30,301 nucleotides of DNA. Origin: a virus. Both the position numbers and the translations under genes were made by a program. Each line of letters starts with the position of its first letter. Position 1 is the first letter of the stretch. Shown piece after piece: positions 240 through 24,800 of this stretch. The notes beneath the pieces were generated by a model. It worked only from the letters and a program-made list of their open reading frames with translations, was not told the DNA's origin and did no database searches. The stretch covers positions 1-30,301 of the IMG/VR virus record IMGVR_UViG_3300028840_004318, one strand, 5' to 3'.

Positions 240-2371
240 GACGAACCCTCCGAGCCAGATGAAGAAGTCGCCGGGCACACCTCGGGCCCCACCTCGATCA
301 AGTGTCCGCGGCAGTCGAAGGTGAGGTTGCGGACGCAGACGATGATCTCGCTCCCGTCGGGCGAGCAGTAGACGTCCGAGACGACCTGCACCTCGGTGTT
401 GCAGTTGGTGCAGTATTCCCACTGGTTCTCGAACTGGAACCAGTAATCGACGCCCTCTTCAGCGGCGCCGCTCGACGAGCTGGAGCTGCTCGCGCCGGGG
501 CACGCATTGGGGTCGTCGCTGTCGTCGGCGTACATCCGCACGATCGCCCCGCGGCAGCTCTGGTCGTCGATCGAGCTGCACGACACGTCGCAGGAGCCGG
601 ACTCCACGCCGGCGGGCAGCAGCCTGCACTCACACTCGCACTGGGCCTCTTCCGCCTCGCTGGCGGCGGAACCGCTCGAGCTCGACGACGGGTCGCACTC
701 AGGGATCGGCTTCACCCGCTCGTCGACGTCGATCCCGTTGCCCTGCATGCCGGCGGCCGAGTTGTGGGCCTCGACCGTGTTCAAGGCGAACCCGCGGCGC
801 CCGCCGGCCACGTTCCTCCACTCCCGCTTGCAGCAGTACTCGGCCGGGCCGTCGGCGGAGCTCGAGTCGGAGCAGTCGACCAGGACCGGCTCGACCTCGC
901 AGAACTTGTATCGCCAGCGGTTCGGGGCGCACTCCTCCCACGACACGAGGCGGGCCCAAAACCCCTCGCCGTCGCAGCTCTCGGCCGTGTGGCCGATGAT
1001 GCCGTGCAAGAGCTCGGAGATGCCAAAGTTGGCGGGCAGGCTCGTCACCCGGGTGTAGGCCGCGTAGGGTGCTCCCCCCTCGGGTCCGAAGTTGGGGCCG
1101 CTCGGGTCCTTTGAGTCGCGAGCCTGCAGGGCGCCCCAGTGCCACCAGATGGCGTCGTCGAAGCCGGTGGGCTCCCACTCCTTGAGCCCCGCCCAGCTCA
1201 TGTCGTAGGTCTCGGGCGCGAGCCAGGCGTAGTAGTCCTGGGCGATCTGCGTGGCGAGCGTGGTGAGCTGGCCGGCGTTGGTCGGCTCGCCCGTGCAGTT
1301 GGCCGAGACGGCCCGCGCGGTGTCGAAGAGGGTCTTGGTCGTCCCGTCCGAGACGTCCTCGGCGTTGCCCGTGAGGACCTCGCCGGCCAGGATCGTCTTG
1401 GCCCAGACGTCGTCGCAGCAGGGCCCGCGGCGGAACACGACGCGGACCGCGGCGGGCCGGCGGAGGTGCTCGCGGATCTGCGCGGCCGGCTCGGCGGGGT
1501 ACTCGTTCGACAACCCCCCGGCCCAGATCGTGCCGGCCAGGGTGTTGGTCTTCATCGGGTCGCGGTCGGATGGGACCACGGGCGTGATCAGCTGCCCGCC
1601 CACCAGGCCGCCGCCCTGGGTGTTTTGCGCCAGCGTGCCTTTCGACGTCGAGGCCTTTTGGGCCACGACCGTGCCGTCGAGCTGGCGGATGATCCGCTGC
1701 CCCACGCACCAGGCGGCCGCGTCCAGGAGCACGGCAGCGTTCTCGTAGGGCCTGGTCCACTCCTCCGGATCGGGCCGCTCGTAGGCGGACGGGATCGGGT
1801 CGGTGCCCACCTGCTGGCCGATCCGCTGGCCGAGGTGGATGAACAGCGCGTCCCAGGTGGCCACGCAGTGGTCCAAGTCGCCGGCGTCCTTGAACTGCCA
1901 GTGGTAGCGATCGTCGACCAGGGGCAGGATCCAGAGCTTCTCGACGTCCTCGTCGAAGACCGTGGCCGCCGGGCGAGGCGGCAACATGAACATGTCCGTC
2001 GAGATCTCGCGCCCGCCCTCCTCGGTCTCGCTGAGCGCCAGGGTCGCGGAGCCGGTCGAGCTGAGCGCCGAGCGGATCTCGGTCAAGGAGGCGTCACCGA
2101 CCAGGAAGAGCCCGAGGGCGAAGCGTGAGGCCCCTGTCGGCCACCAGAGCGTGTTGAGCTTGAGCCGGCTGGGGAGGTGGCTCCAGTTGGCCGTGGGCAG
2201 CCCGACGGCCGTGCTCGAGTCAGTCCGCGGGCCGGTGCGCCCTTCGGTCAGGGCCACCGGCTGGTCGCCAAAGAGCCGCAGATCCGCCAGCGGGAGCGCG
2301 CGCTCGAGCCAGGTCGCGAAGTGGCGCTCCGCGTCCTCCAAGAGCAACTTCTCGCCGGCGTAGGTGATCAT
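236..2371 (-). CDS. Large Ser-run, Cys-rich phage structural protein (tail/adhesin-like)
   Basis: A 711-aa protein starting MITYAGEKLLLED; its ATG overlaps the upstream stop (ATGA), so translation is coupled. The reading frame continues upstream of this ATG to 2782, but that stretch overlaps the preceding gene out of frame and is not coding. The N-terminal two thirds have mixed globular composition rich in Trp and Asp. The C-terminal third is Cys-rich (CECEC, CDVSC, CPG) with runs of five to seven serines (SSSSSG, SSSSSSSG). Such Ser linkers between Cys-rich modules suggest an extended, disulfide-stabilised fibre. No catalytic motif was seen. It follows a tail-terminator-like gene and a sugar-modification cassette, so a host-contact structural role is likely but unproven. 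Confidence 0.75.
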   Translation of the reverse strand: MITYAGEKLLLEDAERHFATWLERALPLADLRLFGDQPVALTEGRTGPRTDSSTAVGLPTANWSHLPSRLKLNTLWWPTGASRFALGLFLVGDASLTEIRSALSSTGSATLALSETEEGGREISTDMFMLPPRPAATVFDEDVEKLWILPLVDDRYHWQFKDAGDLDHCVATWDALFIHLGQRIGQQVGTDPIPSAYERPDPEEWTRPYENAAVLLDAAAWCVGQRIIRQLDGTVVAQKASTSKGTLAQNTQGGGLVGGQLITPVVPSDRDPMKTNTLAGTIWAGGLSNEYPAEPAAQIREHLRRPAAVRVVFRRGPCCDDVWAKTILAGEVLTGNAEDVSDGTTKTLFDTARAVSANCTGEPTNAGQLTTLATQIAQDYYAWLAPETYDMSWAGLKEWEPTGFDDAIWWHWGALQARDSKDPSGPNFGPEGGAPYAAYTRVTSLPANFGISELLHGIIGHTAESCDGEGFWARLVSWEECAPNRWRYKFCEVEPVLVDCSDSSSADGPAEYCCKREWRNVAGGRRGFALNTVEAHNSAAGMQGNGIDVDERVKPIPECDPSSSSSGSAASEAEEAQCECECRLLPAGVESGSCDVSCSSIDDQSCRGAIVRMYADDSDDPNACPGASSSSSSSGAAEEGVDYWFQFENQWEYCTNCNTEVQVVSDVYCSPDGSEIIVCVRNLTFDCRGHLIEVGPEVCPATSSSGSEGSS

Positions 2372-2868: not shown

Positions 2869-3920
2869 GCCAGGTCTCGGTTCTGGTAGTACTCCTGGAG
2901 CCGGTCCGCGCCGCCGGCCGCCAGGTAGGCGGTGAAATCCTGCATCCAGCGGGTCACGGTCCCGCCAGGTCCGCGGCGGAACCGGTCGATCGCCTGCCCG
3001 GGGCTCTCGTCGCCGCAGCCGTCGGGCTGGAGAATCTTGTCCCACAGGTCCCACAAGACCAGCGCTGTCCCGGCCCACTCCTCTTCGTGCCGCTTGAACC
3101 AGGCCCGCATCGACGGGGTGTAACTACCCCACGCGCGGTCGTGGAGGACGTGGCACGCCTCGTGGACGTCGCGGGGGAGGCGATAGCAGGGCGGCGCCAG
3201 GCCGTGCGTCTCGAGCTGCAACAGCCCGGGGTACATCAGGTCGTAGACGTCCTGGAATGGCAGGCGCCCGCCGTGCTGGAAGAACTTGAGCGTCTCGAAC
3301 CACTCCTTCTCGGCGAAGAACACGTCCTCCAAGAACTCGGTCTGATCGACCGACGGCTCGGGCTGCCAGTAGATCCACGGCACCTGGGGGAAGAGGTCCC
3401 AGTGGTCCTGGAGGAACGCCCAGTAGCAGTCGTCGATCAGCGTGGAGAAGGTCGTGTTGAGCGGGTCCTTGACGTCGCGGATCCGCTTCTTCCAGTCGTA
3501 GGTGTGGGCGACGATCCGCCGCAGGTTGCCCATCGCGACGTGCGGCCGGTTCGTGCGGAGCCAGTCGCAGGTCTTGGCCAGCCGGCCGGGGCCGTGGATG
3601 TACTCGACGTGGTTGAAGCTGACGTACTTGCCGCAGACGAGCGGCCAGACCTCGCGGACGCCCTGGCACACGTCCCAGATCGGGTAGTCGTTGGAGTCGC
3701 GCGGGTGGTCGACGTCGTGGACCTCGACGCGGAACGGCTGCTTCGCGGCGATCCGGCGGATCGAGTCGCTCGACTTCCGCTGGCTGACCACGACCACGTT
3801 GATCCGGTCCCAGACGGACGGGTTCAGCTCGCGGACCGCGCCGAACCAGCGGTGGTCCCAGGTGATGGGTTTCTCCGCGTCCACGAACAGCAGGATGGTC
3901 AGGTCGATTTCAGCAGCCAT
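2865..3920 (-). CDS. Glycosyltransferase-like protein (putative GT-A fold)
   Basis: A 351-aa protein starting MAAEIDLTILLFVDAEKP, with GAGGA shortly before the ATG. The beginning looks like a GT-A nucleotide-binding half: a beta strand (LTILLFVD), a second strand (INVVVVSQRK) and, about 100 residues in, GKYVSFNHVEYIHGPGRL, where family members usually place a metal-binding D-x-D after a similar strand. Here the acidic pair is replaced by HVEY, so metal use is doubtful. The C-terminal half is aromatic-rich and unrecognised. It lies between the sulfotransferase and a structural gene, in line with 2-epimerase and methyltransferase genes, which supports a role in decorating a glycan or a virion protein. 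It could be a GT-like fold without transferase activity. Confidence 0.6.
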   Translation of the reverse strand: MAAEIDLTILLFVDAEKPITWDHRWFGAVRELNPSVWDRINVVVVSQRKSSDSIRRIAAKQPFRVEVHDVDHPRDSNDYPIWDVCQGVREVWPLVCGKYVSFNHVEYIHGPGRLAKTCDWLRTNRPHVAMGNLRRIVAHTYDWKKRIRDVKDPLNTTFSTLIDDCYWAFLQDHWDLFPQVPWIYWQPEPSVDQTEFLEDVFFAEKEWFETLKFFQHGGRLPFQDVYDLMYPGLLQLETHGLAPPCYRLPRDVHEACHVLHDRAWGSYTPSMRAWFKRHEEEWAGTALVLWDLWDKILQPDGCGDESPGQAIDRFRRGPGGTVTRWMQDFTAYLAAGGADRLQEYYQNRDLA

Positions 3921-10022: not shown

Positions 10023-11438
10023 TCACTCCTCGGGCCGGTTGTTGCGGCGGGGGCCGTCAGGCGGCCGGTTCCGCGGCTGATTCGGGTCGGCCCAGTCCTG
10101 GAGGAAGCCCATCAGCGGCGGCCTGGTCTGGCCCTCGGAGAGGCTGTCGTTGAGCCGGTCCGCGCTCTCCTGGAGGGCTCGCAAGAGCGGGTTGGCGGCC
10201 ATGACCGTGGCGACGAGGCGGAACGCCCAGGCCGCGGCTCCGGTGCCGAGGTTTTTGGCGTTGGCCCACAGCTCGCGCAGCCATTGCGTGTCTTCGCGGA
10301 GGCCCATCGTCTGCTTGCCGGCCCAGGCGGCCGTGCCGCTGGTGGCCTGGGCCGTCTGTGACTCCAGGATCCGCTTCTGGTAGTCCATGCCGGCGTAGAG
10401 GGCCATCAGCTCGGCGGAGTAGATCTGCAAATGCCTCTGGGCGTCGAGCAGCCGCTCGGCGAACCGGGCCGTGGCCGACGGGAGTTTCATCAGGGCCACG
10501 CTTGCCCCGATGGCCGCCACGCCCACGGCCACCATGGGATGACGTGCCGCAGCGATCAGCCGGCTCGCTGCGCCGCTGGCCGCTCCACCGGCAGCCCCAC
10601 CCGCTGCGCCGCCGGCAGCTCCACCGGCAGCCCGGGGGCCGAACCGCCTGGCGATCCTCTGAGCCGTGGCCAGCTTGTCCAAGAGCTCGGTCCGCTGGCG
10701 CTGCTCGCGTCGCTCCGACTCTTGGACCATGTCCCGCGGGCCGACCCTGTCCTTGAGCGTGGCCGCCTTGACGTCCTCCTCGCTCATCAGCTTGCCCGAG
10801 GACTTGAGGCGATCGAAGCGCTCGCCCCAGGTGAGTCCGGCCACGTCCTGGGCCACCGTGGTCTTGGGGGCGACCACATGGTGGCCCCCTGCCAGCGCGT
10901 GGGCCAGCCGGCGGACCGCCTCGGTGTTGTCCTTGAGGGCCTCCTGGTGCTTGCTCTCGGACTCCGAGGGCGCTGCCGGGCCCCCGGATTGCCCGGCGCC
11001 GGACGTCTCGCCCGGCCCCTGGCTCGCCCCGGTGAGCCCATAGATCTTGGGCGACTGGGGAGCACCGGCCAGGCCCAGGGCCTCGGCCGCGGTCCGCAAG
11101 AGCTTCTCACGATCGCGCGACCGCTCCGCGCCCCGGGCGTTGCCCTTCACGCCGGCCAGGTTGTTGATCATCCCGCGGAGCTCTTTGTCGCTGAGCTGCT
11201 CGAGGTGGGCCGGGACCTGCTCGATCGAGACGCTCTCGCCCGTGGGTCTGGCCGGGGTGATCGACGGGTAGCCCTTCGAGGCCGGAGGCTGCTTCTGGGC
11301 CTCCTTGCCGGCGAGGATCGCCGTGTAGGCCCTGGCGTTCTCCGGGCCCACGTCGGTCATCACCGGGCCCTGCTGGGAGCCCTGGCCCTCTCGCTTCATC
11401 GCCTCGAGGGCGCGGAGGATGTCGCGGTAGTCGGCCAC
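10023..11438 (-). CDS. Putative tape measure protein (short)
   Basis: A 471-aa protein starting at a GTG with a strong AAGGAGG site 8 nt upstream. It follows the frameshifted tail-chaperone pair, the conserved siphophage position of the tape measure. Composition fits: long helical stretches, a Gly-Ala repeat (AAGGAAGGAAGGAAGG, residues 270-287), a hydrophobic segment (302-318, MVAVGVAAIGASVALMK) and a charged, Pro-rich tail. If the whole protein scales at about 0.15 nm per residue, it predicts a tail near 70 nm. This is short for the class, so the protein could instead be one part of a divided system, though no second candidate is seen. Confidence 0.7.
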   Translation of the reverse strand: MADYRDILRALEAMKREGQGSQQGPVMTDVGPENARAYTAILAGKEAQKQPPASKGYPSITPARPTGESVSIEQVPAHLEQLSDKELRGMINNLAGVKGNARGAERSRDREKLLRTAAEALGLAGAPQSPKIYGLTGASQGPGETSGAGQSGGPAAPSESESKHQEALKDNTEAVRRLAHALAGGHHVVAPKTTVAQDVAGLTWGERFDRLKSSGKLMSEEDVKAATLKDRVGPRDMVQESERREQRQRTELLDKLATAQRIARRFGPRAAGGAAGGAAGGAAGGAASGAASRLIAAARHPMVAVGVAAIGASVALMKLPSATARFAERLLDAQRHLQIYSAELMALYAGMDYQKRILESQTAQATSGTAAWAGKQTMGLREDTQWLRELWANAKNLGTGAAAWAFRLVATVMAANPLLRALQESADRLNDSLSEGQTRPPLMGFLQDWADPNQPRNRPPDGPRRNNRPEE

Positions 11439-11442
11439 GTCG

Positions 11443-12083
11443 TCAGCCTCCTTCGCTCACGGGAGCGGCGCGCTGCGAGCGGTTCCACGCCGCGCGGTTC
11501 TGGCTGAGGTTGAACAGCGCCTGGGCCTCCTCGGGAGAATCCGCAAAGGCGTCGAAGTACTGCTTCGGCACCTCACCCGAGGTGGCGCTCAGGATGGCGT
11601 CGCTGACGGCTCGGACGAGGGCGAAGCCTCGACGGTCGGTGACGCGTCGTTCGAGGAAGAGGAGCCCGCAGAGGAGCTCGTAGGTCCGCTTGGGGGCTCC
11701 GGGGCAGTCGAGGATCCGTAGACCGAAAGCAGATACGGCATCTGCGACGGGTCGGTACTTTTTTTTAGCTCGTCGAGGTACTCGTCGAACTGACGAATCA
11801 GGTCGAGCGTCTCCCAGTCGGTCAGGCCCGTCAGGGTGCGGTTGTCCCAGGCGCTCACCTCGAAGACCTCGCGGATCGCCTTGAGGACGATCGAAACCTC
11901 GGGCTCGTGCCCCTGATCGGCCAGGGGCATGTGGTCCTCGAAGTTCATCTCCGCGTGGTTGATGAGCGCTCGCCACACCCGGGCCGGGTCCGCGCGACGC
12001 TCCTGGGTGCCGTCGTAGAAGACGAACAGGGCACGCTGTCGTTCTCGGCGCCGATCGGCCCATCGTTTGAATAATCCCCACAT
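11443..12083 (-). CDS. Tail assembly chaperone fusion (G-T type) made by -1 frameshift
   Basis: The product shares 108 residues with the shorter chaperone, then shifts -1 on a run of eight A at 11766-11759 (CTA AAA AAA AGT read as AAA AAA AAG TAC) and continues for 105 residues (KYRPVADAVSAFGLRILDCP...) to a stop at 11443, giving about 213 aa. The extension has globular coding character (RTYELLCGLLFLERR, PKQYFDAFADSPEEAQALF) and no good start of its own; the -1 frame upstream of the slip is arginine/proline-rich shadow. A -1 shift just before the tape measure gene is the known lambda G/GT arrangement. GT chaperones bind the tape measure and recruit tube subunits. The slip itself is inferred from sequence, not measured. 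Confidence 0.8.
11589..12083 (-). CDS. Tail assembly chaperone, unshifted form (G type)
   Basis: A 164-aa protein starting MWGLFKRWADRRRERQRAL; GAGGA lies 6-7 nt before the ATG, whereas the frame's earlier start is only a TTG. The first 108 residues form an acidic, helical domain (NHAEMNFEDH, IRQFDEYLDELKK). After the slip site the unshifted frame encodes a 56-residue Ser/Pro-rich low-complexity tail ending EPSATPS. Lambda-type G proteins usually end soon after the slip, so this overlap of about 170 nt is long. The low complexity may partly reflect the constraint of the overlapping shifted frame. It lies between tail tube and tape measure genes. Confidence 0.8.
   Translation of the reverse strand: MWGLFKRWADRRRERQRALFVFYDGTQERRADPARVWRALINHAEMNFEDHMPLADQGHEPEVSIVLKAIREVFEVSAWDNRTLTGLTDWETLDLIRQFDEYLDELKKSTDPSQMPYLLSVYGSSTAPEPPSGPTSSSAGSSSSNDASPTVEASPSSEPSATPS
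11759..11766 (-). promoter_or_regulatory. Slippery A8 site for -1 programmed frameshift
   Basis: Eight consecutive A on the minus strand, read CTA AAA AAA AGT in frame 0. A -1 slip pairs both tRNAs perfectly with AAA AAA and joins the chaperone N-domain to the 105-codon extension. I did not identify a clear downstream pseudoknot by eye. Confidence 0.8.
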
Positions 12084-12132
12084 TGGTGGTCCTCGCAAAA
12101 GTGGTCGTCGTGGTCGTCAGTCGGTCGCAAGA

Positions 12133-12615
12133 TCAGGTGGAGACCGCGTTGTAGAGCACCCCGTTGGCGTCCTTGTGGGCCTCATACTCAAGCACAAGCG
12201 TCGAGTACTTGGTCCCCTTGTTCATTTCCCACACGTCGCGGAGAAACGCCCGCGGGAAGTTCCAGGGCCCCGTCGTCGGGTTGATCAGAAGGCGACTGCA
12301 CTTGCTGCCGCCGAACATGAGCGTGCCGGGGGTGCCTGGTTGGCCCTCGGTGTCGCCGGCCAGCCGGGCCCGAAGGTTAGTGGCTACGGTCTCGTCCCAC
12401 TTGGTCAGCTCGAGCCGGATCCTGGCGATCTCGCCAAGGTACTGGACGTCGATGGGCGGGCCCTGGTCGCCGCCGTACTGGTCGCCGGGCACGTCGATCC
12501 AAAAGGCCTGGTCGCGGATCTCGGCCCCCTGGCGTGTATACCCCAGGGCTGTGAGCCCGCTGCCCACGTCGACCGAGATCGCCGCAGGCCCAAATACGTT
12601 GACGGCAGCAGGCAT
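12133..12615 (-). CDS. Major tail tube protein (putative)
   Basis: A 160-aa protein starting MPAAVNVFGPAAISVDVGSG. It is beta-rich, with an internal helix near the end (RAFLRDVWEMNKG) and a final strand (YSTLVLEYEAHKD), as expected of siphophage tube subunits. Size, composition and position (after the head-tail connector and just before the frameshifted chaperones) all fit the major tail tube. No signature motif was found, so the assignment rests on order and overall pattern. It is followed by a 49-nt gap with no structure I can identify. Confidence 0.7.
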   Translation of the reverse strand: MPAAVNVFGPAAISVDVGSGLTALGYTRQGAEIRDQAFWIDVPGDQYGGDQGPPIDVQYLGEIARIRLELTKWDETVATNLRARLAGDTEGQPGTPGTLMFGGSKCSRLLINPTTGPWNFPRAFLRDVWEMNKGTKYSTLVLEYEAHKDANGVLYNAVST

Positions 12616-14843: not shown

Positions 14844-15539
14844 TTACTCCTCGCCGGAGACGACCTGCTCGAGGACCTCCTCGTAGCTGACCCTCTCGCC
14901 GGCCTTGAGCTTGGCCTTGCAGATCCGCATGGCTTTGTCGGAGGCCTCCTTCGAGTACCGCTCGCGGTTGGCGGCGGCGCCGGGACGGGCCCGGCTCATG
15001 GCCGCGGCGTCGTCGAATGTGGGAACTATCATGTCGAGCGGGATCTCGCGGTAATTCGCGTCGATCACCTCCAGGTGTGCCGCGAACTGCTCGTCGGACA
15101 CGCGCCCGTACTTGACGCGCTCGAACTCCGCGTCCAGATCGAACAGGTGAGTCCGCCGGCGTTCGGCCAGGGCGGCGTACCGCTCGGTGTTGATGCGCTT
15201 GCCCTGCTCGACGTGGAGCTGGCCGCGGACCGTCTTGAGCTCGTTCCGGAGCTCGGCGACCTGGCCGTGCAGTCGCGAGTACTTCACCGGCAGCACCTCC
15301 TCGTCCTCGGGCACGGGCGGCGCCGGGGTGTCGGGCACGGCCGGCTCGTCGACCGGGGGCGCGGCCGGCTCGTCGAGCGGGCCATCCACGGGCGGCTCGT
15401 CGACCGGGGGCTCTTCGACCGGCTCGTCGGGGACGTCGGGCTCATCGGAGGCTGCCATCTGCTCCTGGGCCCAGATCGCCCACGGCTGCTGGCTGATGGC
15501 CTCGGTGATTTGCTGCAGTTCCTCAGGGGACAGTGCCAT
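14844..15539 (-). CDS. Scaffold protein from internal start (Mu Z-like)
   Basis: Within the protease gene, codon 241 is ATG (MALSPEELQQITEAISQQPW) with GAGAGG 6 nt upstream, a better ribosome site than that of the full-length start. Initiation here gives 231 aa comprising only the linker, coiled coil and C-terminal scaffold parts. In phage Mu, scaffold Z arises the same way inside gene I. This is an inference from the internal site and domain boundary. Confidence 0.65.
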   Translation of the reverse strand: MALSPEELQQITEAISQQPWAIWAQEQMAASDEPDVPDEPVEEPPVDEPPVDGPLDEPAAPPVDEPAVPDTPAPPVPEDEEVLPVKYSRLHGQVAELRNELKTVRGQLHVEQGKRINTERYAALAERRRTHLFDLDAEFERVKYGRVSDEQFAAHLEVIDANYREIPLDMIVPTFDDAAAMSRARPGAAANRERYSKEASDKAMRICKAKLKAGERVSYEEVLEQVVSGEE

Positions 15540-16259
15540 GGCTGGCCTCTCGTTCTCAGGGTTGGGGTTGTCAGGCGGGTCGGCAGCGGCCGACTCGGCG
15601 GAATAGTCCTCGCGGTCGTCGCCGTCGCTCGGCACGAACACGCTGGTGGCGGATGGGGCGCATACGGAGTACTTCTCCACCTCCACGCCGTCGCGGCGGC
15701 GGGCCGAGTAGAGAAGCCCCATGTCGAGCCGCGGGGCCTCGGCGCCGAGCAAGGCGATCGGATCGAGGTACATGTCCTCGTACTCTTCTTCCACCCAGAG
15801 CTCGGCGCTGCGGCGGGGGAAGTCGCGGATCACGTCGGCCTTGTCGCGGTGGAGGTGGAAATCGGCCAGGACCGCCCACCTGGGTTTCTGGCCCGGCTGG
15901 CTGATCAGCCCGACCCGAAAGGGCCCGGCGAGGCCGACCAGGGGCATGGGAGAGTTGTGGTGGCCCTGGCCGGGGTCCGGGGTGTGGCCGACGATCACGC
16001 CGGCGTAGTCGCCCGTCTCGGAGATCCTGCGGTTGCAGTTGGCGGCCAGGAGCTTCAGGCGCTGGACGTCGAACTTGAGCTCGCGGCCCTTCGTGGTCTC
16101 CGTCTCGTGCTCGGCGAAGACCGGCACGTCGGCGATCGTGAGCCAGTCGTCCTCGGGGAAGTCGCGCCGAGCCGGCAGGATGTTCGCCCGGGGAATCGAC
16201 GCGTCCGATCGGATCGGCTGTTCGACGACGGGCGTGGTGTCGAGTTCGGCAGTAGCCAT
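14844..16259 (-). CDS. Mu I-like head maturation protease fused to scaffold
   Basis: A 471-aa protein starting MATAELDTTPVVEQPIRSDA. Residues about 55-215 match phage head protease I: the helix LKFDVQRLKLLAANCNRR, VIVGHTPD with H92, LADFHLHRDKADVIRDFPRRSAELW with S151 as likely nucleophile, and LDPIALLGAEAPRLDMGL. A Pro/Asp/Glu linker (272-322) leads to a coiled coil (328-365) and a charged C-terminus, as in scaffold domains. The protein would assemble inside the procapsid and cleave itself and other head proteins. It is the first gene of the transcription unit behind promoter P3, and its ATG has no visible ribosome site, which fits regulation by the leader. Confidence 0.85.
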   Translation of the reverse strand: MATAELDTTPVVEQPIRSDASIPRANILPARRDFPEDDWLTIADVPVFAEHETETTKGRELKFDVQRLKLLAANCNRRISETGDYAGVIVGHTPDPGQGHHNSPMPLVGLAGPFRVGLISQPGQKPRWAVLADFHLHRDKADVIRDFPRRSAELWVEEEYEDMYLDPIALLGAEAPRLDMGLLYSARRRDGVEVEKYSVCAPSATSVFVPSDGDDREDYSAESAAADPPDNPNPENERPAMALSPEELQQITEAISQQPWAIWAQEQMAASDEPDVPDEPVEEPPVDEPPVDGPLDEPAAPPVDEPAVPDTPAPPVPEDEEVLPVKYSRLHGQVAELRNELKTVRGQLHVEQGKRINTERYAALAERRRTHLFDLDAEFERVKYGRVSDEQFAAHLEVIDANYREIPLDMIVPTFDDAAAMSRARPGAAANRERYSKEASDKAMRICKAKLKAGERVSYEEVLEQVVSGEE

Positions 16260-16274
16260 GGCAAACCAAGAAAC

Positions 16275-16318
16275 AAAAAAAGGCCCGCCAGACTCCCGGT
16301 TGGGAATCTGACGGGCCT
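16275..16318 (-). terminator. Intrinsic terminator in the leader of the protease-capsid operon
   Basis: On the minus strand a 17-bp stem (16318-16302 with 16297-16281, two G-U wobbles, four-base loop) is followed by seven U. It lies after promoter P3 and only about 15 nt before the protease ATG, so it would stop transcripts from P3 unless bypassed. A 20-nt box at 16314-16333 is shared with the terminator leader at 18768-18830. Confidence 0.8.
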
Positions 16319-16376
16319 CGTGTGTCGAGTTACCCGGAAATATGCTGCGGCACTAATGGGGCCGCGTTGTTGTGAC

Positions 16377-16421
16377 AATGTACGCCACGACGCGATTTCT
16401 TGTCAAATGGGTGATGGCCCA
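16377..16421 (-). promoter_or_regulatory. Promoter-like element P3: TGGGCCATCAC, TTGACA, 18 bp, TACATT
   Basis: On the minus strand TGGGCCATCAC (16421-16411) is followed after 4 bp by TTGACA (16406-16401) and, 18 bp later, TACATT (16382-16377). The 11-mer lies in the last codons of the 70-aa gene, whose TGA stop is part of TTGACA. It would drive the protease-to-tail unit through a terminator-bearing leader. Confidence 0.6.
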
Positions 16422-16615
16422 CGCAGCCGCCGCTTGGTCGGCTGGGCCAGGACCCTGTCCTGCAAACACCTCACGCAGCGGCTCATCTCCTCGCGGTCGG
16501 CCGGCTCGAGGTCGGCGTCGGCCGAGTTGAGGTGCAGGTACACCCGGGCCAGGGCCTCGAGGCACTCGCGCTCAGCCTCGGACAATCCGGTCGTAGGGTG
16601 ATCACCTCCAGACAC
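16403..16615 (-). CDS. 70-aa small helical protein, unknown
   Basis: Starts at GTG (VSGGDHPTTGLSEAERECLE) with GGAG about 8 nt upstream and 12 nt after the previous stop. Mostly helical, with LEALARVYLHLNSADADLEPADREEM and a CVRC pair near the end (SRCVRC). It ends TKRRLRGPSPI; the last codons overlap promoter element P3. It is soluble, unlike the other four genes of this block. No family is recognised. It may be a small regulator or partner of the preceding membrane proteins, but nothing in the sequence decides. Confidence 0.65.
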   Translation of the reverse strand: MSGGDHPTTGLSEAERECLEALARVYLHLNSADADLEPADREEMSRCVRCLQDRVLAQPTKRRLRGPSPI

Positions 16616-16627
16616 TGGTCGGCTCCG

Positions 16628-16918
16628 TCAGAGTCCGTGGGTCCGGCGCTCGATCTCATCGATCCGGGCCTCGTTTCGGCCGCAGTGGAGCTGGCCGATC
16701 CGCCGGAATACCTCCTTGACGTCGTGCTTGATCTCGGTGACGGTCGTGGAGATCCCATTGGCCAGTCGCACCTCGAGGGCGGTCAATCGCTCGCCCATCT
16801 CCCGGTCATCGCGGTCACGCTCGCGGCGGGCCTGCCACCACGTCAGCGCGGTCGTGCCGAGGCCCGTGAGGACGATTGAGACGATGGCCACGACGATCTG
16901 CACAGTTGCGTCACTCAT
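16628..16918 (-). CDS. Small one-TM protein with coiled coil (holin/spanin-like candidate)
   Basis: A 96-aa protein. I choose MSDATVQIVVAIVSIVLTGL at 16918 because AGGGG lies about 5 nt upstream. It has one membrane segment (residues 5-27), then a charged region (RRERDRDDREMGER) and a heptad-like coiled coil (LTALEVRL...VTEIKHDVKEVFRRIGQL). This topology recalls XhlA-like lysis accessory proteins or inner-membrane spanins, although XhlA carries its segment at the C-terminus. In this block of exported proteins a lysis or envelope role is the best guess. Family identity is not established. Confidence 0.7.
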   Translation of the reverse strand: MSDATVQIVVAIVSIVLTGLGTTALTWWQARRERDRDDREMGERLTALEVRLANGISTTVTEIKHDVKEVFRRIGQLHCGRNEARIDEIERRTHGL

Positions 16919-16972
16919 GCTGCCCCTGCCTCCGGTCCTCTCGCGGTTACTGCTCACACGGCTTGCCGCGCG

Positions 16973-17440
16973 CTAGGCGGGCGCCTTGGCCGGAGTGGCC
17001 TGGACGGCCGGGGTGGGGATTTCCGGATCGCGGGCCACCTCGGCGAACTCGCGCTGTTTGCGTGCAGCGGCCGAGGCCTTGGCGTCGTCCACGACCTTGA
17101 CGATCTTGACGCGCTGCTCCTCGTCCTGGAGCCGGAGCGTCAGCTGGTGCCAGAAAGCGGGCTCCATCGCTTTCAGGCGCTCGGCATCACTCCCCTCGGT
17201 GAGCAGGTCCACCAGGGAGCGGATGGCTCGGGCCGCCCCGGAGCCGTCCCCGACGGCAAAGCGGTTGAAGATCTCCGAGAGCCTGGGCAGCTTCATTTCC
17301 TTGCACCAGTCGGCCACCTCGGCCAGCTTCAGCCGGCGATCCTCCTCTTGCTCGTCCTTCTTGAAGACGTACTTCGCCAGGGCAATGGCCGCGACCACGG
17401 CCAGGGCGAAGATCAGGGCTTGTTCGAGTGTAATCGACAT
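16973..17440 (-). CDS. 155-aa N-terminal single-TM protein, unknown
   Basis: Starts MSITLEQALIFALAVVAAIA, with GAGGTG about 8 nt before the ATG. One N-terminal membrane segment (residues 7-25) is followed by a charged, helical cytoplasmic or periplasmic region (KKDEQEEDRRLKLAEVADWCKEM; LTLRLQDEEQRVKIVKVVDDAKAS) and a Pro/Ala-rich tail ending AVQATPAKAPA. The layout resembles an i-spanin-like or accessory lysis protein, but no motif confirms it. It lies between the thioredoxin-like protein and the coiled-coil one-TM protein. Confidence 0.7.
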   Translation of the reverse strand: MSITLEQALIFALAVVAAIALAKYVFKKDEQEEDRRLKLAEVADWCKEMKLPRLSEIFNRFAVGDGSGAARAIRSLVDLLTEGSDAERLKAMEPAFWHQLTLRLQDEEQRVKIVKVVDDAKASAAARKQREFAEVARDPEIPTPAVQATPAKAPA

Positions 17441-17475
17441 TTGTGGTCACCTCGCGTGGAATGGTGGTGGATGGG

Positions 17476-18156
17476 CTAGGCGGAGGCGTTGGCGTCGCGC
17501 TTGAACTCGAGGGCCAGCGTCACGACGAAGGCCACGATCACCGCGGCCGCCAACAAGATCCAGAACAGCATGTCGGAATCGGGCTCGGCCGGCGGGGTGT
17601 CGATCACGGGATGGACGTCGACGTCGATGATCGGCCGATCATCAGGAACTGGGACGAGGTTCGGGCTCGGGTCCGGGTCCGGCCGCGGGCAGCGGTCGAA
17701 GAATCTAGACTGCCGGCGGAACAGGAAGCCGACCTGGTCTCCCAGCGTCTTGGCATCCTTGAGCTCATGGGCGTGCTCGGCAAGCACGACGGTGCCGTTG
17801 GCTTTTTGGACGAAGACTGCAGGCAGCACGGCGTGGCCGGCGAACCGCTCCCGGTGGGTCGGATTACTCTCCGGGTAGACGTGCCAGTGGGTCTGGGCCT
17901 TGAGCGAGGCCAGGCGCGGGTCGGCGTCGAACCAGGCGACCAGCTCGCGGTCCTGCGCACGGCTCCGCCAGTCGTCGTGGACCAACAGCGTTGTGTGGTA
18001 GGCTCCGCCGTCCTCGGGCAGCTCGACCACGCGCTGGTTGACCTCGTCGGTGGCGACGGGCGGCGCCGGCGTCATCTCGGGCATGTGGTCGCGGGCGACA
18101 AACAGTCCTAGGCCGACAACAGCGGCCACCAGGATCGCAGTACTCAAGGGCTTCAT
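17476..18156 (-). CDS. Bitopic thioredoxin-like protein without CxxC
   Basis: A 226-aa protein starting MKPLSTAILVAAVVGLGLFV, with AAGGAG 8 nt before the ATG. It has an N-terminal membrane segment (5-21), a periplasmic-looking domain (about 40-150), a Pro/Asp linker (PDPDPSPN, 159-168) and a C-terminal membrane segment (197-217). The central domain shows thioredoxin-fold spacing: strand YHTTLLVHDDW, helix-like DPRLASLKAQTHW, then LPAVFVQ with a Pro at 112 where thioredoxins have the cis-proline. The active CxxC is missing, so it is more likely a binding or scaffolding version. Its function in a phage is not known; it sits after the cysteine-peptidase lipoprotein. Confidence 0.7.
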   Translation of the reverse strand: MKPLSTAILVAAVVGLGLFVARDHMPEMTPAPPVATDEVNQRVVELPEDGGAYHTTLLVHDDWRSRAQDRELVAWFDADPRLASLKAQTHWHVYPESNPTHRERFAGHAVLPAVFVQKANGTVVLAEHAHELKDAKTLGDQVGFLFRRQSRFFDRCPRPDPDPSPNLVPVPDDRPIIDVDVHPVIDTPPAEPDSDMLFWILLAAAVIVAFVVTLALEFKRDANASA

Positions 18157-18168
18157 GACACAAACTCC

Positions 18169-18756
18169 TTACCTGTGAGGGCGCGGTGGGGACGGGCTGT
18201 AGACGGGCGTGAAGGCGTAGCCGCCGTAGCCCCGCCACTTCGCAAGGAACTCGGCTTTGGGAACGTACACGAACCGCTCGACGCGGTTGTTGTCGATCAA
18301 TGCCGCCCGGCCGTCGGGGGTGAACCCGGCGAACGTCACCGCATGCCCGCGAAAATAGTGGATCGCGGCGCCGCGTCTAGTTCGAGAGCACCACTCGAGA
18401 AAAGCGGTGTCGCCCGATCGGGTGTAAGCGTAGCGGAGCTCGGGCCAGCGGGACTCGGCGATCTGCGCGAGGCCCGGGACGCTGCAGGCGCCGGACTGGT
18501 TGTCGCGCCACCAGTCGGCCATGGTGTGAAGCCCCTGCCACCGGAAGCAGGTGATCAGGCTCGCGTGCATGCAGGATCCGCTGCCGTAGTTCGGCTCCCG
18601 CTGATCGACCTCGAGATCCAGCGGGGGCAGGTTCGCGGCGGTCACGACCGCCACGGGGCAACCGTCACAGGGGTCGCAGGGATCGCTGGAGCGGATCTCG
18701 CAACCGAGGCAGGCGAGACACGCCAGGCACGCCAGGATCGCTGGGAGACGCATCAT
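18169..18756 (-). CDS. Lipoprotein with C39/papain-like cysteine peptidase domain
   Basis: A 195-aa protein from MMRLPAILACLACLACLGC, with a lipobox-like end (LGC, Cys19) after a Cys-rich hydrophobic stretch. The frame extends upstream to 18879, but that part runs back through the terminator hairpin and promoter region. The domain carries Q52, SGSCMHAS with C62, GHAVTFAGF with H138 and LIDNN with D155/N156, the order Gln-Cys-His-Asn/Asp of papain/C39-like peptidases. Exported and lipid-anchored, it could cut peptidoglycan cross-links or envelope proteins. It is the first gene behind promoter P2 and the leader terminator, and starts the small membrane-protein block. Confidence 0.75.
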   Translation of the reverse strand: MMRLPAILACLACLACLGCEIRSSDPCDPCDGCPVAVVTAANLPPLDLEVDQREPNYGSGSCMHASLITCFRWQGLHTMADWWRDNQSGACSVPGLAQIAESRWPELRYAYTRSGDTAFLEWCSRTRRGAAIHYFRGHAVTFAGFTPDGRAALIDNNRVERFVYVPKAEFLAKWRGYGGYAFTPVYSPSPPRPHR

Positions 18757-18767
18757 GCAGCTCTCAC

Positions 18768-18814
18768 AAAAAAAGGCCGGCAGCCGCGCCCTGGTTGAGA
18801 GGCGGCTGCCGGCC
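18768..18814 (-). terminator. Intrinsic terminator in the leader of the membrane-protein block
   Basis: On the minus strand a perfect 13-bp stem (18814-18802 with 18787-18775, 14-nt loop) is followed by seven U (18774-18768). It lies downstream of promoter P2 and about 11 nt before the lipoprotein ATG, so it would also end transcripts of the preceding portal operon. A 20-nt box at 18811-18830 is shared with the leader at 16314-16333 (16 of 20 identical). Confidence 0.85.
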
Positions 18815-18849
18815 TGGGGTGTCCAGTGACCGGGGTCGCAGCAGCTGGG

Positions 18850-18894
18850 AGTATAAGCCCAACTCGCAAAGTCAGTCAAACGGGTGATGGCCCA
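18850..18894 (-). promoter_or_regulatory. Promoter-like element P2: TGGGCCATCAC, TTGACT, 18 bp, TATACT
   Basis: On the minus strand TGGGCCATCAC (18894-18884) is followed after 4 bp by TTGACT (18879-18874) and, 18 bp later, TATACT (18855-18850). Spacing is identical to P3. It lies just after the stop of the 68-aa gene and before the terminator-bearing leader of the lipoprotein gene. Confidence 0.65.
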
Positions 18895-18899
18895 CCTGG

Positions 18900-19106: not shown

Positions 19107-22012
19107 TCAGTGCCCTTCAGTTGCTGCTGGATGACGGCTGCCGTCTCCGGGCTGGCGTGGGTCCAGCCGGCCTCCTCGTGACCCTCGAGCTGGAAGAACC
19201 AGGCGCCCTTGTCGTGCTTCACGCGGTACTCCCGATCGCGAATCCGCACGCGCTTGACCGAGGGGGTGGGCTGTGGGTTGGGGGGCTGTTGAAGTTGCTG
19301 TTGGATCACGGTCGTCGTCTCCGGGCTGGCGTGGGTCCAGCCGGCTTCAGGATGCCCCTTGAGCCGGAAGAACCAGGTATTACCGTCCTCTTTCACGTCG
19401 TAGTCGCGGCCACCAAGGGTCACCGTCTCCACGGCCGGGGCTCGGCGTTGACCTGCACTGCGGTGCTTGGCCAGCCACTGCTCGCGGGTGAGTGTGAGTG
19501 GATCCACCTTCCAGACGAGCATCTCGTCGACGTACTGTTGGTAGAGCTTCTCCTCCTCGGGCGTCCAGGCGTCGGCCTTGGCCGCCTCGCTTCCGGGCGC
19601 GTCGATCCACCTTTCGCCCGCGTTGTACTTGTCGGCCAGCTCCTGCTTGGCCTCGATCTCCTCGGGGCTGTACCCCTGGCGCTCGAGGGCCTGACGGATG
19701 AGCTTGCCGGACTTGTAGTCGAAGTAGGGGTTCAGCTCGTGGAAGATCGAGAGCTTGCCCTCGGGCGGATGGGCCCGCTTGCCGGGCTCGACGTAGACGC
19801 CTTGCCCAGGCTTGGCCGGGGTCGCTTCGCCCTGGGCGCCGGCCTTGGGTGCGAACTTCCCGTGGTCCCGCGGGTGCTCTTCCTCCTTCCAGGGCTTGGC
19901 GTAGTGCTCGACCTGCACACCGATCTCCTTGCCCCCGAGGCCCACGCGGATCTCGCCCTGCTCATCCACACTGACGGGCACTTCAGCGAGCGCAGGGAGC
20001 TGCTGGAGCCCCTCGGCGAGCCCTGGGGCCTGTGGCTGCCCCTGAGGGCCTTCCTGGTCGCCCTGCTGCTTCTGAGCGTCGGGATCCTCGCGGGCCTTGG
20101 CGGCCGCCTGCTGGGCTCCTGGGCCCAGCATGGCCAGCTCGGCCGGCGAGGCCTGGGCCAGGGCCGAGTTGGGGATCCATTCGCCCGGCGGGTAGAACTT
20201 GCCGCCCAGGCTGATCCCCGACGGCTTGGGGCTCCGCGGGTGCTGCGAGTCGTCGTACACTCCGCCGCCGGGCATGGCGTAGCGCTCACGGCCTGCAGGC
20301 GATCGCCAGTAGTGCTCTGCGGACACGTCCTCCTGGGGCTGCTGCTGGGCCCGCGCCTGCCTGATCAGCTCTCGCACCCTCTCGATCGCCTCGGACCGTC
20401 CCAGGCCCTGCTGCTGGTACTGGTCGGCCGCCTGGCCGAGCTGGCCGAGGGTCTGCGGCGGGCCCGACTGGGGCGTCCACCCCTGGACCTGGGCGGTCTG
20501 CTGCTGCTGGGCCTGGGCCATCTGCTGCTGCTGCATGTCCGCCTGCATGTGCTGCGGGTTGGTCAGCTTGTCCTCGCCCTCTTGCGGCACGGTCGCGCCG
20601 ATCAGGTCGTAGACGTCCTGGCTCTTGAGCTGGAGGCCCATCTCGTAGGCCTGCTTCCAGCCGGAGAGCTTCCCCTCGACGTCGGGAGCCTCGGTCTCGA
20701 TCACGAACTTGATCGGCAGATCTTTGTAGTGGGGCCAGTTGTAGTCGATCAGCGGCTGCACCAGGTCGGTGGTGATCGTCTCGGCCAGGTTGATCGAGTC
20801 GTAGCGGATGATCTGCAGGTAGGTGTCCAGGTGGATGCTCGCCACGCCGGAGCCGAGCCCCGTGCTGGCCGCCTCGCTTGTGAGGATCTGGCCGAGGATG
20901 TACCGCTTGATTTGATGCCCGAAGTACTCGCGGATGATTCGATCGAGGACGTCGGCGCCGGCCATCCCGGGCTCGATCCGCTTGACGTCGCTGGAGAGGA
21001 TGTCGCTGTCAGGGTGCCGCGGCACGAGCACGATGTTCCGCCCGAGCCCGATCCGCTCCTCGGCCGCCGTGCGCGTCGCCTCGTAGGCCGTCGGGTTGCC
21101 GGCCGGGTAGCTCCAGATCTCCATGCCGAAGGCGGAGCGCTCGAGGTACTCCATCAACCAGGCCAAGGTCTCTTGCTTCTGGAACCAGCTCCAGTACAGC
21201 CGAGACCTGATGCCCACGCCGTGGATCGCTCCGGCCCGCTCGGGCGCCTCCCACTCCGCGTCTTCGATCATGTGCTTGTGGATCGCGAGCAGTGGCCGCT
21301 CCCAGTGCTCAAGGAAGTAGGCCAGGCCGTGATCGGTGGCCGCGACCTTGTTGACCCGCTCCACGGCCCAGCGTCGCGCGACGGTGCCGCCCTGGGTGTA
21401 GCCGGCCCCCACGCGGATCCCGACCTGGTCCTCCTGGAACGTCTGCTGGCCCGACCCGTCGTCGTAGCGGAAGACGAGCTTGTCGCCGTTGACGGGCATC
21501 CACCTGTCGATGATCACGCGGTTCTGCCCGTTGACGCGCGCGTTGCGGAACCGGTGCGAGACCCCGTACTTGCCGTACCAGAGCGCGTGCAAGAGGCACT
21601 CGCGGTACTTCAGGAAATTGGGGATCCTGTAGAGGATCTCGGTCAGCTTGTCGACGACGAACTTCTGGTGCTTGTCCTTGTTGTCGTCGGCCTCGAGGTG
21701 CCAGTCCAACAGCGCGGTCGACCGCTGGCGCTGCTCCAGGCACTCCATGATGCCCGGGTCATTTCTCATGAACCGCGCATTGTCCCACGAGTGCCGCATC
21801 GCCTCGTCCGAGACGTAGTAGGTCCGCGCGACGTTGCGCATGAGCCCCTGGAACGTCACGACGTGGGGCAGGACCTGCTCGCCGGCGTTGGGCGGCATGC
21901 CGTCGATCTTCAGGAACGGATCCTCGTCGCCCGGGTCGCCGCTGCGGCGGAGGCTGGCATCGTCCGGCGGCATGAGGCCGCGCGCGGGGAGCTGGTCGGT
22001 CTTCGTGATCAT
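19103..22012 (-). CDS. Mu gp29-like (DUF935) portal with long repeat-bearing C-terminus
   Basis: A 969-aa protein starting MITKTDQLPARGLMPPDDAS. Residues about 60-480 resemble the Mu gp29/DUF935 portal: a helical stretch, a central region (PNFLKYRECLLHALWYGKYG) and the family segment FGHQIKRYILGQILTSEAAS (365-384), followed by DSINLAETITTDLVQPLID. Then come a Gln-rich zone (488-562), a low-complexity Pro/Gly/Gln zone, EEHPRDHGKFAPKAG (711-725; similar short motifs occur in phage head and toxin-domain proteins) and two tandem copies of a ~49-residue module (861-909, 919-967), each with W-FF-L-GH-EAGWTHASPET. Usual DUF935 portals are about 500 aa, so nearly half is extra. No separate MuF-type gene was found; the C-terminus may supply that function (inference). 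Confidence 0.85.
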   Translation of the reverse strand: MITKTDQLPARGLMPPDDASLRRSGDPGDEDPFLKIDGMPPNAGEQVLPHVVTFQGLMRNVARTYYVSDEAMRHSWDNARFMRNDPGIMECLEQRQRSTALLDWHLEADDNKDKHQKFVVDKLTEILYRIPNFLKYRECLLHALWYGKYGVSHRFRNARVNGQNRVIIDRWMPVNGDKLVFRYDDGSGQQTFQEDQVGIRVGAGYTQGGTVARRWAVERVNKVAATDHGLAYFLEHWERPLLAIHKHMIEDAEWEAPERAGAIHGVGIRSRLYWSWFQKQETLAWLMEYLERSAFGMEIWSYPAGNPTAYEATRTAAEERIGLGRNIVLVPRHPDSDILSSDVKRIEPGMAGADVLDRIIREYFGHQIKRYILGQILTSEAASTGLGSGVASIHLDTYLQIIRYDSINLAETITTDLVQPLIDYNWPHYKDLPIKFVIETEAPDVEGKLSGWKQAYEMGLQLKSQDVYDLIGATVPQEGEDKLTNPQHMQADMQQQQMAQAQQQQTAQVQGWTPQSGPPQTLGQLGQAADQYQQQGLGRSEAIERVRELIRQARAQQQPQEDVSAEHYWRSPAGRERYAMPGGGVYDDSQHPRSPKPSGISLGGKFYPPGEWIPNSALAQASPAELAMLGPGAQQAAAKAREDPDAQKQQGDQEGPQGQPQAPGLAEGLQQLPALAEVPVSVDEQGEIRVGLGGKEIGVQVEHYAKPWKEEEHPRDHGKFAPKAGAQGEATPAKPGQGVYVEPGKRAHPPEGKLSIFHELNPYFDYKSGKLIRQALERQGYSPEEIEAKQELADKYNAGERWIDAPGSEAAKADAWTPEEEKLYQQYVDEMLVWKVDPLTLTREQWLAKHRSAGQRRAPAVETVTLGGRDYDVKEDGNTWFFRLKGHPEAGWTHASPETTTVIQQQLQQPPNPQPTPSVKRVRIRDREYRVKHDKGAWFFQLEGHEEAGWTHASPETAAVIQQQLKGTE
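19142..19345. repeat. Tandem repeat in the portal 3' end
   Basis: A 30-bp identical segment occurs at 19142-19171 and again at 19316-19345, 174 bp (58 codons) apart. It is the conserved core (AGWTHASPET) of the two C-terminal portal modules, which diverge elsewhere. Perfect identity of the core against diverged flanks suggests recent duplication or strong selection. Confidence 0.75.
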
Positions 22013-23280: not shown

Positions 23281-24800
23281 CGGGATCCTCTCAGTGTGAG
23301 GTTGCTGGAGTCAGTGCCCACCAGGCCCAGGCGCGTGGCGCTGGTGCCCCAGAGGGCCAAGCGGGACGTGTCCGTGCCGGTGAGCGCCAGGCGCGCCACG
23401 GCCGTGGCCAGGCCGGCAACGACTGCGGTGTAGGTATCGCCGGCCAAGACCCCTTCGGTCAGGGTCGCGCGGGCCGACAGGATGGCCGTGGCCGTGTCGC
23501 CGGCCAGGATGCGTTCGCTGTAGAGGGCCAGCGCGGTGAGGTTGTTCGCGAACGTGTCGCCGGCGTCGGTGCCTTCGGAGATCGCCGCGGCGATCAGGCC
23601 CGAGACGATCGTGGCCGAGTAGGCGTCGCCGGCCAGCGCGCCTTCGGTCGCTGCAGCCAGGAAGGACCCGATCACTGAGAGCGCATCGCCGGCCTTCGCA
23701 CCCTCGCTCACAGCTGCCAGGAGTGTGGCCAGGGCGCTGACCTGGTCGCCCGCCTCAGCGCCCTCGGAGACGACTGCCAGGGCCCCGACGATCGCCGTGA
23801 GCTCGTCGCCGGCAAGACTGCCCTCGCTGATGCTCGCCAGGGCCGAGAGGACGCCCGCCAGAGCATCCCCGGCCTTCGCCCCGTCGGTCACCGCCGACAA
23901 ACCCGATAGGGCAACCGCCCACGCGTCGCCGGCGTCCGCACCTTCGGTCACCGCGGCAAGCAGGTCGGCCTCGACCTGGACCGTGTCGCCGGCCTTGGCG
24001 CCTTCGGACAATGCCCCGCTGACCGCGCCTGCCCCAGCGCTGGTCGCCGCAACCCAGAGCGGCAACCGCACGGGCGGACGATAGATCGCCCAAGGGTCGG
24101 CGTAGTCGGCGGCCACCTCGGCGGCAGACAATGCCCTATTGTGGACCAGTACGTTCGCAATCCGGCCAACAAAAAACTGCGATGCCGCAGGCGTTCCGCC
24201 GACCCGAAACGCTTGCATCACAGACGCCGCATCAACAGCACCGCTGCCAGAAATGTAGCCCCCGGCAGCGGCCACGCCGTTGTGGTACAGCGTGTTTGTA
24301 TTCGCAACCGCGTTGTGGACAACCCCGATCTGCTGCCATGTATTGATCGAGACGACCGACGCCGTACTGTCGTAGGTCATTTGTGTCGAGGCGCCGTCGC
24401 CAATCTGGAGCCGCAGCTTGGCACCGTTGAGAGCCAGCCGGTACGCCTCGAACAACGCTACGTCCGAGCCGTATTTGGAGAGCACACCACGGACGCCGGT
24501 AACGCTAGTTGGGCGAATCCAGCACGACATGGAAAAGCTCGCGGTCAAATCAATCGACTTGCTGTAACTGACCGTGACGCGATCATTCGAGCCATCGAAG
24601 TCGAGTGCGAATCCCTGGTCCCAAGCGACAAAATCGCCTGCATCCATATTAGTGAGTGTGCCGTGGTTGCCGTTGGCCGAATAGTCCGACGCTGTCGTCC
24701 CGTCCCCTTCCCACATAGGCAGCGCGAGCGCCAGCCCTTGCGCCAACGGATGGCCCAGGTTGATGCCAGGCGCCCAGATTGGAGGTGCGAGGTGGGGCAT
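23277..24800 (-). CDS. LamG-like adhesin with ten 20-aa repeats
   Basis: A 507-aa protein. Residues about 25-240 form a concanavalin/LamG-like domain (DYSANGNHGTLTNMD, ALDFDGSNDRVTV, FSMSCWIRP, NTWQQIGVVHN, FFVGRIANVLVHNRALSAAEV), a fold that binds glycans. Then follow ten ~20-residue repeats (264-466), consensus V-S-E-G-A-x-A-G-D then hydrophobic helix-like LSALAA, and four shorter copies of R-L-A-L-x-G-T-x-x-x (469-505). The repeats resemble stalk or trimeric-fibre sequences. The LamG coding region (about 24120-24700) is clearly lower in G+C (about 52-62% per line counted) than its surroundings, hinting at separate acquisition. Likely a receptor-binding fibre, placed between terminase and portal. 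Confidence 0.85.
   Translation of the reverse strand: MPHLAPPIWAPGINLGHPLAQGLALALPMWEGDGTTASDYSANGNHGTLTNMDAGDFVAWDQGFALDFDGSNDRVTVSYSKSIDLTASFSMSCWIRPTSVTGVRGVLSKYGSDVALFEAYRLALNGAKLRLQIGDGASTQMTYDSTASVVSINTWQQIGVVHNAVANTNTLYHNGVAAAGGYISGSGAVDAASVMQAFRVGGTPAASQFFVGRIANVLVHNRALSAAEVAADYADPWAIYRPPVRLPLWVAATSAGAGAVSGALSEGAKAGDTVQVEADLLAAVTEGADAGDAWAVALSGLSAVTDGAKAGDALAGVLSALASISEGSLAGDELTAIVGALAVVSEGAEAGDQVSALATLLAAVSEGAKAGDALSVIGSFLAAATEGALAGDAYSATIVSGLIAAAISEGTDAGDTFANNLTALALYSERILAGDTATAILSARATLTEGVLAGDTYTAVVAGLATAVARLALTGTDTSRLALWGTSATRLGLVGTDSSNLTLRGSR
23403..24011. repeat. 60-bp coding repeats of the LamG adhesin stalk
   Basis: Ten consecutive ~60-bp units, each coding for x-S-E-G-A-x-A-G-D plus a hydrophobic stretch. 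Units vary at many third positions, so they are old protein repeats and not a fresh DNA expansion. Two units carry a one- or two-codon insertion. Confidence 0.8.

Follow-up and report, generated by a model that had tools for sequence, protein, structure and literature searches.

A hairpin that overlaps an intrinsic terminator probably gates structural operons in uncultured phages

Each of the two leaders studied here is probably a cis-acting transcription attenuator, in which a short RNA hairpin, likely held in place by a factor, gates the phage structural operons that lie behind it. The leaders belong to a phage structural module on the minus strand of a 30,301-nt record of an uncultured virus, and we refer to this whole stretch of DNA as the window. 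One leader lies between the portal gene and a block of small secreted or membrane proteins, and the other lies between that block and a putative protease gene. The features that matter for the argument are listed below.

29169-27463, minus strand: terminase.
22012-19103, minus strand: Mu-like portal.
18882..18895, minus strand: element GTGGGCCATCACCC just 5′ of the P2 -35, a possible activator site.
18850..18879, minus strand: predicted promoter P2 (leader 1), TTGACT-18-TATACT.
18809..18833, minus strand: antiterminator hairpin of leader 1, CCGGU-CA-CUGG-ACACC-CCAG-GCCGG, which folds as predicted.
18768..18815, minus strand: intrinsic terminator of leader 1, with its stem at 18815-18774 and U7 at 18774-18768, 11 nt before the ATG at 18756.
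18169..18756, minus strand: first gene behind leader 1 (195 aa, lipoprotein-like signal).
16403..18156, minus strand: rest of the small membrane/secreted protein block (ORFs 18156-17476, 17440-16973, 16921-16628 and 16615-16403).
16409..16422, minus strand: element GTGGGCCATCACCC just 5′ of the P3 -35.
16377..16406, minus strand: predicted promoter P3 (leader 2), TTGACA-18-TACATT.
16312..16336, minus strand: antiterminator hairpin of leader 2, CGGGU-AA-CUCG-ACACA-CGAG-GCCCG, which folds as predicted.
16275..16319, minus strand: intrinsic terminator of leader 2, with its stem at 16319-16280 and U7 at 16281-16275, 15 nt before the ATG at 16259.
14844..16259, minus strand: first gene behind leader 2, a putative protease/scaffold gene.

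Including its first gene, the small secreted/membrane protein block spans 18756-16403. The 195-aa product of that first gene has no Pfam or PHROG match, and by eye it shows a Cys-His-Asn pattern as in papain-like enzymes. The protease/scaffold assignment of the gene behind leader 2 is based on position and conservation; no Pfam family scored above cut-off, and the AlphaFold model is of low confidence and too poor for a fold search. Cement-like and capsid-like genes follow this gene, which, as had been remarked before, has no visible ribosome site. The phage GenBank collection contained no homologue of the terminase or the capsid protein and gave only weak matches to the Mu-like portal, so there is no named phage with which the window can be compared.

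The original prediction described two promoters, each followed by a 20-nt box and a hairpin with U7 that ends 11 or 15 nt before a gene, and we find this arrangement at those coordinates, with the boxes within one base of the positions it gave. P2 and P3 are, as read from their letters, near-consensus promoters of the form TTGACW-18-TAnAnT, and the pattern TTGAC-N19-TAnAnT occurs twice in the window, precisely at P2 and P3, with 0.01 occurrences expected. The 21-mer GTGGGCCATCACCCRTTTGAC, which the original prediction missed, is common to both promoters; it precedes each of them with 20 of 21 letters identical, and about 0.07 such pairs are expected by chance. The fold z-scores of the terminators are -4.8 in leader 1 and -6.8 in leader 2, no shuffled sequence is equally stable, and in a stricter scan of the window they are the only two strong U-run terminators.

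The two boxes (GGTCACTGGACACCCCAGGC and GGTAACTCGACACACGAGGC) are identical at 16 of 20 positions, as had been reported, and they do belong to a real, conserved unit, but the unit is not linear: the 20-nt box is the larger part of a previously overlooked 22-25-nt hairpin, which shares sequence with the terminator. In both leaders, this antiterminator hairpin consists of an outer stem, a 2-nt bulge on the 5′ side, an inner stem, and a 5-nt loop, and the differences between the boxes compensate each other (CUGG-ACACC-CCAG in leader 1 versus CUCG-ACACA-CGAG in leader 2). Model R2 scores the leader 1 hairpin at 20.4 bits (18810-18832) and the leader 2 hairpin at 25.4 bits. The 3′ arm of the outer stem doubles as the base of the 5′ arm of the terminator, and because this arm is common to both structures, the antiterminator and the complete terminator are mutually exclusive. 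A linear conserved box was rejected, since the stem letters vary while the pairing stays, and the box is better described as a hairpin of conserved shape with an A-rich loop that is often AACAA.

Relatives of the window were found stepwise by protein searches, from a near-identical sister contig (3300017963_000921) to a 56-kb relative (locus L019, record G001) and then, with a protease profile, to more than 40 further loci. The sister contig is uninformative because its leaders are identical to those of the window. The 56-kb relative, whose capsid protein is 76% identical, contains both leaders, one before a membrane/lysis-type block and one before the protease, with a functionally similar block between them. 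Its promoter-like sites have the same 18-nt spacing as P2 and P3, and GGTGGCCA lies upstream of both sites at the same place in both leaders; an element of the GTGGGCCA type upstream of the -35 is conserved in the window and in G001. Locus L022 has no membrane block and contains a single unit between a small ORF and the protease, and the layout of the window therefore resembles a pair of units with a block placed between them.

The unit also precedes the protease gene in distant phages with protein identities of 24-61%, where a terminator lies just upstream of the protease and a hairpin of the same shape (for example CGGU-GA-CUG-AACAA-CAG-A-ACCG) runs into that terminator. Several phages have 2-4 copies per genome, each before another structural operon, and the operons behind the units include the lysis-type block, protease, cement, capsid, and tail genes, with gene functions across these phages partly inferred from position. 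These relatives are metagenomic contigs. In G019, a 27-nt antiterminator is repeated verbatim in two leaders with different terminator tops, and in the window and G011 the copies vary in their stem letters while keeping the shape, which suggests one reader per phage that recognizes shape plus loop. Among the protease homologues, L023-L028, L030, L031, L034, and L037-L040 have no unit, and in L021, L032, and L033 the inner stem is missing, which leaves a simpler variant. One copy in G009 is a long hairpin without a U-run. L006 was set aside as a different phage type.

The original prediction also raised the alternative that the short RNAs are themselves regulators. Under such a reading, the 70-100-nt terminated RNAs would be the main products and would act in trans as phage small RNAs, and a promoter plus a terminator would indeed yield discrete RNAs, predicted here at ~75 and ~95 nt. 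However, leaders 1 and 2 show no conservation in the stretch from promoter to hairpin, many copies do not have a promoter of their own, conservation is limited to the structure that competes with the terminator, and the position is always just before a gene. We thus consider trans-acting small RNAs hardly probable, and this alternative is not needed. Several phages have no clear promoter just upstream of the unit, and the unit is therefore sometimes intercistronic.

The pairing of the hairpin was examined across copies. MAFFT misaligned such short hairpins, so the first alignment was made by hand, gapless and with N padding; model R1, built from it, was insensitive, and R2 took its place. In three sets (14 hand-aligned, 18 model-aligned, and 24 distinct copies), all aligned to fit the structure, 93.5-95.1% of the cells are paired. 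In the 24 distinct copies, 95.1% of the cells are paired and double changes occur in 7 of the 8 pairs; there are 37 double-change cells versus 10.1±2.4 in shuffled alignments, none of 500 shuffles reaches 37, and when the partner is shifted by 1-3 columns no more than 6 remain. Because the covariation alignments were structure-fitted, less biased tests were added. With the terminator 5′ arm held fixed and the upstream 36 nt shuffled, p was ≤0.03 at 12 of 21 loci, where ~0.6 would be expected. A blind sequence-only pattern run against the viral collection returned the known loci and two new phages (L160 and L162), both of which have the whole unit, with the hairpin running into an overlapping terminator and an ORF following; the other matches had no terminator and were about as many as estimated for chance. 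An earlier pattern search gave, apart from the sister contig, matches that look like unrelated terminators. Outside its training set, R2 detected a copy in G013 with a terminator and a copy in G009 without a U-run. The original prediction had proposed a search of related phages for the unit and for covariation, and the box did prove conserved in them.

These data bear on whether the hairpins are mere terminators of the preceding operons, with the box and the alternative pairing functionless and the downstream genes transcribed in some other way. The unit does directly follow an upstream ORF in several phages, and plain terminators exist in some records. In the window, however, the promoters follow the upstream gene and precede the terminator, ORFs begin 2-40 nt behind the units, and the upstream arm covaries with the terminator base even though terminator pairing needs no such arm, all of which makes this explanation very unlikely. 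Strong U-run terminators are scarce in whole-record scans, at 0-5 per record, and every one of those in the window, G001, G011, G003, and G019 carries the antiterminator hairpin.

In all 27 copies compared, the outer 3′ arm also pairs with the 3′ arm of the terminator. The outer 5′ arm is similar in sequence to that terminator arm (86 of 108 letters), which is what two competitors for one strand would show. Folding of 26 copies gives the outer pairs a median probability of 0.91 in an RNA that ends about halfway through the terminator and of 0.00 in the full-length RNA; 4 of the 26 end at a T-run inside the hairpin and are uninformative on the complete state. The median energies are about -7 kcal/mol for the antiterminator and about -25 kcal/mol for the terminator. 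As in an attenuator, then, the computed antiterminator stem-loop and the intrinsic terminator are mutually exclusive, and both folds are kept, the antiterminator by covariation and the terminator by its pairing in every copy. The switch originally proposed before the membrane block and the capsid-tail unit is therefore supported by conservation, exclusive folds, and compensatory changes.

Hairpins located 8-30 nt before start codons might instead be post-transcriptional elements, such as an RNase site, a 5′ stabilizer, or a translational control near the start codon in which the U-tract aids ribosome binding. Some of the genes have no visible ribosome site and one G009 hairpin has no U-run, as such a role would allow. 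Yet a U-run follows the hairpin in all curated copies but one, and processing does not require competing folds, so we judge a post-transcriptional role to be highly improbable.

The anatomy of the unit, the exclusivity of its folds, its covariation, its recurrence, and its gene context were all computed directly; from them we infer termination in vivo, the direction of control, and the existence and identity of a factor. In the attenuator that we propose, RNA polymerase starting at P2 or P3, or reading through from upstream, would first make the 22-25-nt hairpin, with an outer stem of 4-5 bp, a 5′-side bulge of 1-3 nt, an inner stem of 3-4 bp, and a loop rich in A that is often AACAA. A hairpin that persists would block the lower terminator stem beside the U-tract and let the polymerase enter the gene block; if it does not persist, the more stable terminator would displace it and transcription would stop. 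A phage RNA-binding protein probably stabilizes the antiterminator late in infection and would turn the operons on together. Because the same hairpin shape fronts several structural operons of one phage, one factor most likely reads it, and the energies of the two folds together with the gene content suggest a default that is off and is switched on late.

Phage late-gene control is known mainly from a few model phages. In lambda, the late promoter pR′ is followed by the terminator tR′ before the late genes, and antitermination by Q switches the structural operons on. The window likewise has a terminator between a putative late promoter and late genes, but the site of action of Q is a DNA element close to the promoter, in a single leader, whereas the phage unit would act as an RNA hairpin in competition with the terminator and occurs in several leaders of one genome. 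Among RNA-based systems, the RAT read by the CAT-domain antiterminators BglG, LicT, and SacY is a hairpin interrupted by two asymmetric internal loops (PMC3369936). It resembles the phage unit in size, in having an asymmetric loop, and in overlapping the proximal terminator stem as an antiterminator hairpin; when bound, either hairpin would leave a shorter terminator that is detached from the U-tract (PMC3369936). Unlike RAT, the phage hairpin has only one bulge or internal loop, and it fronts structural genes rather than sugar operons under PTS control. ANTAR leaders (eut, nasF, amiE) form tandem hairpins P1 and P2 with loop residues A1 and G4, and, as here, several leaders of one cluster have a terminator-overlapping antiterminator read by one protein (PMC3369936). 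The phage unit, in contrast, is a single hairpin, with loops (AACAA, ACACA, ACACC, AUUCA) that do not have G at position 4.

The original prediction also offered a put-like label, which finds no support here. HK022 put is ~70 nt long, forms two stem-loops, binds the zinc-binding domain of RNA polymerase, and acts on distant terminators (PMC9378689), whereas the phage unit is one 22-25-nt hairpin with a predicted local effect through overlap with one terminator. What they have in common is a phage leader RNA preventing termination, with two copies near promoters. A related explanation is that control is put-like or purely RNA-driven, so that a protein-free hairpin acts on the polymerase, or the speed of transcription or ribosomes finishing the upstream ORF set the fold. 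HK022 put is a phage RNA that antiterminates alone (PMC9378689), the factor here is a candidate only, and many copies have a stop codon 20-50 nt upstream of the terminator stem. The hairpin, however, is single, is far smaller than put, and overlaps one particular terminator. In the window, the leader starts from a promoter downstream of the preceding ORF and would therefore carry no ribosome. A purely RNA-driven switch is thus unlikely. No Rfam covariance model matched the window, any of eight relatives, or any of 19 leaders, and no such phage motif appears in the passages covered of a 2010 survey of structured RNAs, the literature covered being open-licence papers. The best reading is a phage-specific, multi-copy antiterminator/terminator attenuator that is RAT- and ANTAR-like in logic and a member of neither.

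A candidate for the trans-acting factor is a small Cys4 protein (CxxC...CxxCW..IP..R.W), which is a lead, not a result. At E<1e-4 it is encoded by 9 of the 17 unit-carrying records that reach 30 kb or more, one of which, G414, came to light through the RNA element alone; none of 10 records with no recognized copy of the unit has it (Fisher p about 0.005, with relatedness ignored). No clear Pfam or PHROG family could be assigned to it, and no copy turned up in the window. One of the ten non-carriers, G021, has a weak Cys4 look-alike.

In the genome collection, 7 of the 8 loci with the protease family are labelled Planctomycetota or planctomycete lineages, and one MAG is labelled Saprospiraceae. 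A model search of 149 Planctomycetota genomes gave no convincing copy; none of its 15 matches has a hairpin with a T-run behind it, and they were rejected for this reason. A protease-profile search of 392 Planctomycetota genomes reached three genomes and no new leader. A broader reading, which we hold tentatively, is that the unit is a new RNA family, a phage-borne multi-copy antiterminator of a late-operon regulon in uncultured, probably mostly Planctomycetota phages. Its reader would be a new class of small RNA-binding protein, with the Cys4 zinc-ribbon-like protein as candidate, and its stems would diverge so that each phage disarms mainly its own terminators.

The unit looks like a previously undescribed on/off control of phage structural genes. 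In several genomes, the majority of strong terminators seem to gate the genes behind them rather than to end operons, and the unit may serve as an annotation marker for operon starts in metagenomic phages and as a source of small orthogonal antiterminator hairpins. If this is true, many diverse environmental phages would time virion production in a way that is new and can be tested directly.

An element, GTGGGCCA/GGTGGCCA, lies 5′ of the −35 hexamer in both leaders of the window, at the following positions:

18882-18895, GTGGGCCA/GGTGGCCA element
16409-16422, GTGGGCCA/GGTGGCCA element

It is kept in these two leaders and in both leaders of the relative L019 (record G001), and may be an activator site or an extended promoter site. 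At the protease locus L025, a promoter-like TTGACG-18-TATCTT without a terminator stands directly 5′ of position 5962, and its predicted start is the ATG of the protease gene, whose mRNA may be leaderless. L021, L032 and L033 carry a variant leader, CCGG(T/C)...AAAAGGCCGG, 5′ of the protease gene, where upstream pairing is possible for the terminator base and the inner stem is absent. In G009 (35698, plus strand), a hairpin resembling the antiterminator runs on into an inverted repeat, which is long but lacks a U-run.

The sister contig 3300017963_000921 and the window are nearly identical from ~12.5 kb onward and diverge sharply at 11.1-12.5 kb; window ~11145-12500 is a recombination boundary between them. 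The window also holds an 85-nt direct repeat (85%; 19119-19203 and 19293-19377) at the end of the portal-like ORF, and within ORF 24800-23277 (at 23483-24029) repeats are spaced by multiples of 60 nt, in most cases by 60-180 nt. The terminase ORF of G011 (31825-34185, minus strand) is apparently split by an intein, called by eye (CVAKGTIITTIRGGIPIEKVRAGD ... VHN-C).

A Cys4 zinc-ribbon-like protein of ~100 aa is found together with the antiterminator RNA element:

G017, 3096-3386, plus strand, small Cys4 protein
G018, 18161-18523, plus strand, small Cys4 protein
G003, 50262-50609, minus strand, small Cys4 protein
G019, 767-1054, plus strand, small Cys4 protein
G007, G008, G010, G011 and G414, small Cys4 protein

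In G021 (33231, minus strand), counted among records without a recognised copy of the element, a terminator stands a few nt 5′ of a gene for a small Cys4 protein, possibly a self-regulated look-alike of the candidate factor. The small Cys4 protein itself is a possible regulator.
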